Assembly (NCBI RefSeq): GCF_003863355.1
Contig: NZ_QQWG01000002.1
Span: 124,001 to 188,000, forward strand
Source: Ancylomarina euxina
Lineage (GTDB): Bacteria; Bacteroidota; Bacteroidia; Bacteroidales; Marinifilaceae
Length of the DNA: 64,000 nt
Direction of reading: 5' to 3'
A model generated the notes under the pieces. The model worked only from the letters and a program-made list of their open reading frames with translations. It was not told where the DNA came from and made no database searches. Shown here piece after piece: positions 9,068 through 11,736 of this stretch. The position numbers and the translations under genes were made by a program. Each line of letters begins with the position of its first letter. Within the stretch, counting starts at the first letter, position 1.

Positions 9068-9829
9068 TTATACAAGCTTATTTATAGTAGCCACATAAAC
9101 GGCTTCCATAGCGCTTTTTACATTTAACTTTTTTATGATATTTCGTTTATGAAATTTAACGGTTTCTTCTGAGATAAATAATTTTTGAGACATTTCACAA
9201 GCTGAATTACCTTTAATCATCAGATGCAAAACATCTTTCTCTCTTTTTGAAAGATGTTTAATTATTGTTGGTTTAAATTGTTTCCGGAGAAAGTCATAAT
9301 CAAATCTCTCATCTTTATCATTAAAGGTAATAAAGACATTACCTGATTTTTCGGCTACCGATAAAGAGACTAGGCAAAGTGCGAACCAAATATTACCCGT
9401 ATCTGTTAATATGAGTGGAGTGAGTTTTTGATTTACCAGTATTTCACTTCCCGTATCTTTTCGTTTTAATCTAAAATCATATGAAATAGAGGCTTTATCT
9501 CTTCTGTTAACAGGTAGATTGTAAAAAAAATCAAAACCTTTTTGATTCATCTCTAAAAGCATGTCTAAGTCTTCATTAGGAACCACTTTCTCATAGAATT
9601 CGTAGCCCATCTTTAATACTTCTTCTTGCTCATATCCAGACAAAAATAAGGGATCATCAGATACGTACAAAAATTCTTGTTTATTATAGTCGATGATATA
9701 AAAACCGAGGTTAATCAATTTTGAAACCGCTCTAAGAGCAAGCATATATTGCTTAATCAGTTGGTAATTATCATCGCCTAAATAACCATCTTTTCTTATT
9801 GGATCAAAAAATTTCTCTATTGCTATCAT
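9068..9829 (-). CDS. PAS-like sensor domain + LuxR-type HTH transcriptional regulator
   Basis: N-terminal PAS-like region (GFYIIDYNKQEFLYVSDDPLFLSGY); C-terminal HLSKREKDVLHLMIKGNSACEMSQKLFISEETVKFHKRNIIKKLNVKSAMEAV is a canonical LuxR/FixJ HTH. Confidence 0.88.
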   Translation of the reverse strand: MIAIEKFFDPIRKDGYLGDDNYQLIKQYMLALRAVSKLINLGFYIIDYNKQEFLYVSDDPLFLSGYEQEEVLKMGYEFYEKVVPNEDLDMLLEMNQKGFDFFYNLPVNRRDKASISYDFRLKRKDTGSEILVNQKLTPLILTDTGNIWFALCLVSLSVAEKSGNVFITFNDKDERFDYDFLRKQFKPTIIKHLSKREKDVLHLMIKGNSACEMSQKLFISEETVKFHKRNIIKKLNVKSAMEAVYVATINKLV

Positions 9830-9882
9830 ATCCTTTCTTTTTTTGATTTAATAACCTTATAATTTATACTGTCAATAATTAA

Positions 9883-9902
9883 AACTACACTTTTGAGTAG
9901 TT
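9883..9902. promoter_or_regulatory. lux-box-like palindrome 1 (AACTAC-ACTTTTGA-GTAGTT)
   Basis: 20-bp inverted repeat, 6-bp arms, 8-bp spacer, in the divergent LuxR/GNAT intergenic region; 22/24 identical to 11456-11479. Confidence 0.7.
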
Positions 9903-9956
9903 GTATGCAAGACTGAGAACACCAATATTAGGCTATACTTAAAATTTATAATCGAT

Positions 9957-10628
9957 ATGGATATTCTCTTAAACGACTTTCAAGATTTTTCGCTGTGGTT
10001 AGTATCCCACGACCACTTAAACGAGGTAAGTAGTTTCATTTTACGAGTCAATCATCAAGTGCATTTGAATTCAAACATTATTAATTATTCCGATCTACTT
10101 AAAACCAGAAAATTAGATTTGGATAGTTATTCGAGTTCTTTCTTTTATGCCATCAAAAATCGAAAACATGAAATTGTAGGAACTATAAAAGCTCAAAAGT
10201 GGGATGGAAATAGTAGGCTTCCAATTGAGGATGACTTTGATGTAAAAGTTGTTGATGTGTTAAATGAGTTAAGTTATACGCCTCATGAAGTATGGCATAT
10301 TGGGCGATTTGCTATTGATCAGCAAAGAATAAAAACTGACCCTTTTTTAAGAAAAAACAGAGTTGTAATTCTAAAATTATTGATGGTAAATGCATTGCAG
10401 CACATCTATGCTAACCTAACCAATATTCTAATTGCCGAATGTGATAAAAAACTGTTTGATAAATTGCGATTGATGGAAATTTACTCATCTCAAATTGGAG
10501 ATTCTAAATTTTATTTAGGATCGGAAACAGTACCCATGTTTAATACTGCTATAGGAGTGAAAAAATTTGTGGAACAGCATATTGCTTTATGTTATTCTTA
10601 TCAGCAGCAAGATTTATATACAGCCTAA
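9957..10628 (+). CDS. GNAT-fold acyltransferase resembling LuxI autoinducer synthases / FeeM N-acyl amino acid synthases
   Basis: DLDSYSSSFFYAIKNRKHEIVGTIKAQKWDGNSRLPIEDDF... and EVWHIGRFAID...(E..RFavd-like) with C-terminal LGSETVPMFNTAIGVKKF; architecture of autoinducer-synthase-like GNATs. Confidence 0.6.
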   Translation: MDILLNDFQDFSLWLVSHDHLNEVSSFILRVNHQVHLNSNIINYSDLLKTRKLDLDSYSSSFFYAIKNRKHEIVGTIKAQKWDGNSRLPIEDDFDVKVVDVLNELSYTPHEVWHIGRFAIDQQRIKTDPFLRKNRVVILKLLMVNALQHIYANLTNILIAECDKKLFDKLRLMEIYSSQIGDSKFYLGSETVPMFNTAIGVKKFVEQHIALCYSYQQQDLYTA

Positions 10629-10681
10629 ATTATTAATCAACTAAAATCAAGCTAACAAGACAAAAGTATATCGTATTAGAA

Positions 10682-11455
10682 TTGATGAATTTAGCTCTTT
10701 ATGTTAGTTGTAATTATATTATGTATCAAAGAAATCGAATTTATATATCATCCGAAGAACAAGAGATAATTAAGAATACCAAAATCCTTATCGCAGGCGC
10801 TGGCTTAGGAAGTAATATTGCAGAATGTGTTTTGCGAATGGGATTTGAAAATTTAACCATTTGTGACATGGATAATGTCGAGAATTCTAATCTTAACCGT
10901 CAGAATTATACTTCCAGTGATATAGAAAAACCCAAAGTTGATAGTCTATATCATAGACTTAAATCAATTAACCCCGAAGCTGAAATCAACTATCACAATG
11001 TCTTTTTAACTGAGACTAATTGTTGTGAATATATTGAGAACATTGATATAGCTATAAATACAATTGATTTTACATCAGATGCTCCATTTGTTTTTGATGA
11101 AATATGTCGGGAAAATAATATACCAGTATTACATCCTTTTAATTTTGGTTGGGCAGGATGTGTTTTTATTATTAATAAGTGGAGTGAAAGTCTTCTCAAT
11201 ATTATTCAAGGTGACGATCAACCTGAAGTAAGTATTGTTGAGCATATTATTCAAAATAGTAAATCAGATGTTGATTTATTTTGGTTACGCGATGTGTTAA
11301 AATCTTATAAAGATGAAAATGCGAAAAATTCACCACCTCAATTAGCTCCTGCATCATGGATTACTGCTGGCATTTGTGCAAATCTGTTATTTAAGCTTGC
11401 CAATAACAAATCGATAAAGGTTTTCCCAAATTTTTATCTCTTAACAGCTAATTAG
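10682..11455 (+). CDS. ThiF/MoeB/E1-like adenylyltransferase (probable start ATG 10721, MYQRNRIY...; 10685 also possible)
   Basis: ILIAGAGLGSNIAECVLRMGFENLTICDMDNVENSNLNRQNYTSSDIEKPKVDSL is the E1-like nucleotide-binding signature; no CxxC zinc pairs visible. Confidence 0.88.
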   Translation: MMNLALYVSCNYIMYQRNRIYISSEEQEIIKNTKILIAGAGLGSNIAECVLRMGFENLTICDMDNVENSNLNRQNYTSSDIEKPKVDSLYHRLKSINPEAEINYHNVFLTETNCCEYIENIDIAINTIDFTSDAPFVFDEICRENNIPVLHPFNFGWAGCVFIINKWSESLLNIIQGDDQPEVSIVEHIIQNSKSDVDLFWLRDVLKSYKDENAKNSPPQLAPASWITAGICANLLFKLANNKSIKVFPNFYLLTAN

Positions 11456-11457
11456 AA

Positions 11458-11477
11458 AACTACACTTTAGGGTAGTT
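11458..11477. promoter_or_regulatory. lux-box-like palindrome 2 (AACTAC-ACTTTAGG-GTAGTT)
   Basis: Same 6-8-6 geometry as 9883-9902; begins 3 nt after the ThiF-like stop codon. Confidence 0.65.
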
Positions 11478-11586
11478 GTTCGGTGCTACAATGAAAATTA
11501 CTTTTAGATTATAACAAAAGTCACTCAAATAAATCGATAAGCCACTAAATAATTTTGTGTATGTAGTTGTAAATGAGATTGTCTTA

Positions 11587-11631
11587 ATGATGAGTGAAAT
11601 AGATTTAAGAATGGCGATGTTGTTTATGTGA
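11587..11631 (+). CDS. possible 14-aa micro-ORF MMSEIDLRMAMLFM
   Basis: ATGATGAGTGAAATAGATTTAAGAATGGCGATGTTGTTTATGTGA lies between palindrome 2 and the hairpin at 11631; coding status unproven. Confidence 0.2.
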   Translation: MMSEIDLRMAMLFM

Positions 11632-11658
11632 AAGACTATTCCTCACGGAATAGTCTTT
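11631..11658 (+). terminator. terminator-like hairpin
   Basis: Perfect 12-bp stem AAAGACTATTCC-TCAC-GGAATAGTCTTT; downstream tract only moderately T-rich (CATTTGTTATGTTTT). Confidence 0.65.
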
Positions 11659-11736
11659 CATTTGTTATGTTTTGTCCGAGTATAACAGGACAGTTATCTG
11701 CTAAATAAATGAGAATTATTTTTAATTATTCCACAT

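Follow-up and report, generated by a model that had tools for sequence, protein, structure and literature searches.

A cassette of three genes lies in the window, by which we mean the whole 64,000-nucleotide stretch of Ancylomarina euxina DNA that was analysed. A luxR-type regulator gene on the minus strand is followed on the plus strand by gnat and thiF, and two perfect copies of a palindrome with the core AACTAC-N8-GTAGTT flank the gnat-thiF pair (Table 1). The three genes had been described in an initial annotation; the open reading frames are where it placed them, and we rate its case as stronger than first stated. The conserved palindrome was not among the features that it listed and is an addition to it.

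Table 1. Positions of the cassette genes and associated features in the window
Feature	Position	Strand	Evidence
PAS-LuxR (GerE) transcription regulator, putative receptor for the cassette product	9068..9829	-	GerE E 2.8e-19; Foldseek
Operator 1 (putative), AACTACACTTTTGAGTAGTT, between luxR and gnat	9883..9902	.	0 mismatches
FeeM/AHL-synthase-like GNAT, putative synthase of an N-acyl amino acid (signal precursor)	9957..10628	+	Family HMM; Foldseek
Zn-less ThiF/MoeB/E1-like adenylating enzyme (start uncertain: listed TTG 10682, alternatives ATG 10685 or ATG 10721)	10682..11455	+	ThiF E 6e-37; PDB 9egb/9egc E 1.4e-76
Operator 2 (putative), AACTACACTTTAGGGTAGTT, immediately past the thiF stop	11458..11477	.	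0 mismatches
Intrinsic-terminator-like hairpin, downstream of operator 2	11628..11661	+	15-pair stem, then T-rich tail

The regulator carries a full GerE domain. Its PAS part is weak by Pfam (PAS_3, E 0.017); comparison of structures supports the PAS fold. Besides GerE and this single PAS_3 match, the domain scan gave other HTH-type models and unrelated weak matches, and Autoind_bind was not among them. When the AF2 model of the regulator (pLDDT 84) was compared with known structures by Foldseek, the top match was 3clo, a protein from a Bacteroides, followed by VqmA-DPO (6ugl and 7dwm), with the AHL receptors CviR, RhlR and SdiA lower in the order. The match to VqmA 6ugl has a Foldseek E-value of 6.9e-7; the whole-chain TM-scores are low (0.31), and therefore the domain arrangement differs. 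VqmA of Vibrio cholerae is a PAS-HTH quorum-sensing receptor, and the regulator shares this receptor fold; thus, there is a precedent for a PAS-LuxR protein acting as a receptor, and on the strength of the modelled fold we propose this role for the regulator, with the cassette product as its ligand. The pathway that makes the VqmA ligand DPO differs from that of the cassette, and we know of no linkage between VqmA and either an acyl synthase or a ThiF.

To which family does the GNAT protein belong? Single-protein searches of Pfam, NCBIfam and the PDB with the window protein gave nothing useful and reached no family threshold, and no plasmid matches were found. Relatives were collected from other Bacteroidota genomes, and 49 family members were scanned individually. 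TIGR03694 (exosortase-associated acyltransferase) was matched by 42 of the 49 (best E 2e-8) and the FeeM family PF21926 by 30 (best E 1.3e-5), the window protein itself not being among the latter; it is a divergent member, with a mean identity of 29% to the others. For the 49-member alignment, Autoind_synth was not among the 25 families listed of 26 in all. Against PDB sequences the family profile gave one weak match, LasI (E 0.43), in which HiGRfAi of the family stands opposite wElsRFAI. The AF2 model of the window protein (pLDDT 90) has FeeM (2g0b) as its top PDB match by Foldseek (E 3.4e-8), followed by TofI, BjaI, LasI, MesI and EsaI, interspersed with ordinary acetyltransferases of similar E-values. 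Because of the family HMM matches and the fold of the model, we read the protein as a FeeM/AHL-synthase-type acyltransferase, and it is predicted to synthesise N-acyl amino acids. The initial annotation had pointed to autoinducer-synthase or N-acyl amino acid synthase features, quoting the motif VWHIGRFAID, which is present. HMM and structure comparison place the family with FeeM and the AHL synthases and not with ordinary N-acetyltransferases. We know of no FeeM that occurs in linkage with a LuxR regulator and an E1-like enzyme.

The third gene encodes a ThiF protein of 257 amino acids. In an alignment with Escherichia coli MoeB and TcdA, the E1 adenylation residues (GxGxG, D-x-D, N..RQ, K and D) are invariant, so that the intact nucleotide-binding region noted earlier holds up. 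The absence of zinc CxxC pairs is likewise upheld: the MoeB region bearing them has no counterpart, which distinguishes the protein from the ThiF/MoeB sulfur-transfer enzymes. An invariant cysteine of the family is common to MoeB and TcdA, and therefore no family-specific catalytic cysteine is evident. The closest solved relative, a ThiF-fold protein of the same family (9egb/9egc/9egd), is about 97% identical to the ThiF copy of Tenacibaculum larymnensis. These entries cover the enzyme only, under a name without a function, and no paper on them was found. Partial PADLOC matches to the E1 part of an anti-phage E1-E2 system were also obtained; this assignment was rejected, with no E2 or ubiquitin-like gene seen adjoining.

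Are the three genes found together elsewhere? A search for related loci with the window ThiF alone as query found nothing. Among the first relatives, luxR adjoins gnat in seven of eight clear cassette loci. Seeding with the ThiF family alignment yielded 80 named public loci, 65 of which have the full trio, all as thiF(+) luxR(-) gnat(+) and unlike the window, where the order is luxR(-) gnat(+) thiF(+). In both sets the grouping is far above chance, and the co-occurrence that the initial annotation had asked about proves to be wide. The hosts include Tenacibaculum, Kordia, Flavobacterium, Chryseobacterium, Sphingobacterium and Aquimarina, among others, and the window regulator has a mean identity of 40% to the regulators of the 65 other cassettes. 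In some Flavobacterium loci, a cluster sits between thiF and luxR. Where gnat was absent from the ThiF locus or distant, GNAT was present in nine of ten genomes; in Chryseobacterium indologenes AA5, gnat lies just outside the stretch covered, across an NHLP-type cluster. The pairwise distances of each of the three genes correlate with those of the others (Mantel r 0.81-0.89), as species phylogeny alone would also make them do.

A contig labelled Candidatus Zambryskibacteria (L051) has a cassette whose ThiF is 76% identical to a Tenacibaculum copy, and it is probably a misbinned flavobacterial contig. At L039/L059 and L045, inspection by eye indicates that cassettes adjoin genes resembling conjugative transfer genes; the unit may therefore travel with integrative elements.

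The interval between luxR and gnat contains a 20-bp palindrome, AACTACaCTTTaGtGTAGTT (equal to AACTACNCTTTNGNGTAGTT, also AACTACACTTTAGTGTAGTT). With the strict pattern ACTACNCTTTNGNGTAGT and at most one mismatch, there are just two sites in the 4.4 Mb genome from which the window comes, namely operators 1 and 2; a looser pattern adds sites that all have two mismatches and are fewer than in the control. A site with at most one mismatch occurs in the luxR-gnat interval of 62 of the 65 other cassettes, where shuffles lead one to expect 0.45. The density of perfect cores is 1.5/kb in this interval and 1.4/kb at the gnat end, compared with 0.0025/kb elsewhere in the same loci. Across 21 whole genomes, the strict pattern was found at 18 places, every one of which maps by coordinates to a cassette. 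The palindrome also stands upstream of thiF in 28 of the 80 loci, mostly about 47 bp before the start. In other cassettes, the gnat 3' end has sites in tandem, spaced 38 bp apart, and these stand ahead of the first gene of the adjoining unit, which is often biosynthetic. Since the sites were chosen by their core, conservation of the core letters is partly by construction; position 13, which lies outside the selection, is G in 99 of 101 sites.

Which protein binds this palindrome? Two gnat-thiF pairs that lack luxR also lack the palindrome. A diverged cassette (L046, G230), whose LuxR is 36% identical, has another palindrome, AATACCCAATTGGGTAATT-like, before luxR and thiF (at 9154 and 10897). 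The absence of the palindrome without luxR and its alteration with a diverged LuxR argue, at the level of sequence, for binding by the LuxR protein. The diverged cassette has its gnat reduced to a fragment.

The operator at the gnat end also accounts for a conserved feature of the protein, as its GNAT tail NYSLV is what AACTACTCTTTAGTGTAG encodes when translated (AAC TAC TCT TTA GTG TAG). A GNAT C-terminal peptide had been considered as a ThiF substrate; with the tail explained by operator codons, this candidate was set aside.

The cassettes are associated with antibiotic-type biosynthesis genes. In 41 of the 65 loci these are found on the downstream side of gnat, and in two on the upstream side of thiF. 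The gene types include NRPS, NHLP peptides, NHLM exporters, lanthipeptide enzymes and UpxY/RfaH-type antiterminators. No biosynthetic cluster was seen near the window cassette in the stretch read (5-16 kb). Downstream of operator 2 lie a 221-amino-acid ORF without a family and the terminator-like hairpin, which is weak evidence for a terminator because one was found and 0.8 expected. Between operator 2 and the hairpin (11458-11661) there are small ORFs, for example one of 24 amino acids at 11557-11631, and an Rfam match near 11625 is below the family threshold; this interval may encode a small RNA or a peptide controlled by the operator. Elsewhere, three loci (L047, L075 and L126) have small secreted peptides downstream of gnat, in tandem in L075 and L126, and then an HTTM-domain protein. 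These peptide-HTTM arrays, which stand behind the same operator, are reminiscent of Sdp-type toxin clusters. The cassette neighbours in Kordia algicida OT-1 (L064) are an outer-membrane receptor-type gene and genes that, inspected by eye, resemble those for an ATP-grasp peptide system and for a peptidase-type exporter.

Pairs of an acyltransferase and a ThiF homologue have been characterised elsewhere. In Mycobacterium tuberculosis, which has TyzA/TyzB/TyzC, TyzA acylates tyrosine and TyzB cyclises with ATP, making acyl-oxazolones, and OxzA/OxzB do likewise in Pseudoalteromonas rubra (PMC10404671). As in the cassette, an N-acyltransferase of AHL-synthase-like fold is linked there to a ThiF homologue. 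The third activity of those pathways is a nitroreductase-type desaturase, whereas the cassette has a PAS-LuxR regulator and a conserved palindrome; no nitroreductase was seen among the genes inspected by eye near the window cassette. To our knowledge, the Oxz and Tyz pathways have neither a LuxR nor an operator. The cassette also resembles LuxI/LuxR systems: a GNAT-fold acyl synthase adjoins a LuxR-type regulator, a 20-bp dyad stands before the synthase gene in nearly all cassettes (its sequence is unlike the lux box), and linkage to secondary-metabolite genes is frequent. By contrast with LuxI/LuxR, the synthase is FeeM-like and has HxGR where LasI has ExSR, the sensor is PAS-like and not Autoind_bind, and an E1-like enzyme belongs to the unit.

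We consider it probable that the cassette is an autoregulated small-molecule switch, in which, by analogy with the Oxz and Tyz acyltransferase-ThiF pairs, the E1-like enzyme cyclises an acylated product of the GNAT protein and the PAS-LuxR protein senses the resulting acyl signal. The GNAT protein would N-acylate an amino acid, and the ThiF enzyme would adenylate the free carboxylate of the N-acyl amino acid, with ring closure to follow. The ring product would be an acyl-oxazolone or, more speculatively, an acyl-lactone in the case of an amino acid with a hydroxyl on its side chain. The cyclic product, presumably diffusible, would match the PAS-LuxR protein as its ligand, and the liganded regulator would act at AACTACNCTTTNGNGTAGTT in front of gnat and of the neighbouring unit, which in most relatives comprises thiF and an antibiotic-type biosynthetic cluster; action before gnat would amount to positive feedback. 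The initial annotation had proposed that the GNAT protein acylates and the E1-like enzyme activates or cyclises the product. This chemistry is supported by the precedent of OxzA/OxzB and TyzA/TyzB (PMC10404671), and the part of the proposal that made the regulator the sensor is strengthened by the conserved operator. A more specific version, in which this two-enzyme route yields a cyclic acyl signal by E1-like ring closure, where LuxI would use SAM-based lactonisation, is put forward tentatively, as a possibility that we doubt more than we believe.

Cassettes adjoin NRPS, NHLP, lanthipeptide and other clusters, as would be expected if the GNAT and ThiF proteins were tailoring or self-protection enzymes of adjacent natural-product pathways and the LuxR protein were an ordinary pathway-specific regulator with another ligand. 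We regard this as unlikely, however: the same enzymes stand beside chemically unrelated clusters and occur without a cluster in the stretch of the window that was read (5-16 kb), and gnat and thiF share one operator with the cluster. It could also be asked whether the signal is a free N-acyl amino acid that the GNAT protein makes by itself, with ThiF serving some other purpose, for instance sulfur transfer or the activation of a protein. FeeM products are free N-acyl amino acids, and thiF is at times distant from gnat. Linkage of ThiF to luxR-gnat in the great majority of ThiF-seeded loci, often with the same operator, nevertheless makes such a division of labour quite improbable, as do the missing zinc site and the trio's lack of a ThiS/MoaD gene. 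A pathway like that of microcin C, in which ThiF would adenylate a peptide in the manner of MccB and the GNAT protein would be an MccE-type immunity acetyltransferase, would have in its favour that MccB is related to ThiF, albeit more distantly (E about 8e-7). It is very improbable given that ThiF lacks the N-terminal part of MccB, the alignment beginning no earlier than MccB residue 109, that the GNAT protein is FeeM/AHL-synthase-like, and that the trio has no conserved small peptide gene.

The cassette looks like a self-regulating chemical signalling system, and no earlier description of it was found in a literature search whose coverage excluded bioRxiv and most subscription journals. Its novelty is provisional, because the PDB entries for ThiF show earlier work by others and the literature coverage was partial.

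Quorum sensing has been reported in Bacteroidota without identified genes. An AHL was reported in Tenacibaculum maritimum, in whose genome an AHL synthase gene was not found (PMC5561996). Kordia algicida releases protease in a density-dependent, quorum-like manner and AHL was not detected (PMC3117869); strain OT-1 has the cassette. If the amino acid were homoserine, the two-enzyme route put forward tentatively above would yield AHLs with no need of a LuxI homologue and could explain the AHL of T. maritimum (PMC5561996); if the product were not an AHL, it could explain density-dependent behaviour without detectable AHL in K. algicida (PMC3117869). The cassette offers a concrete gene set with a diagnostic operator, and a means of finding antibiotic-type clusters that are silent in the phylum and perhaps of activating them.
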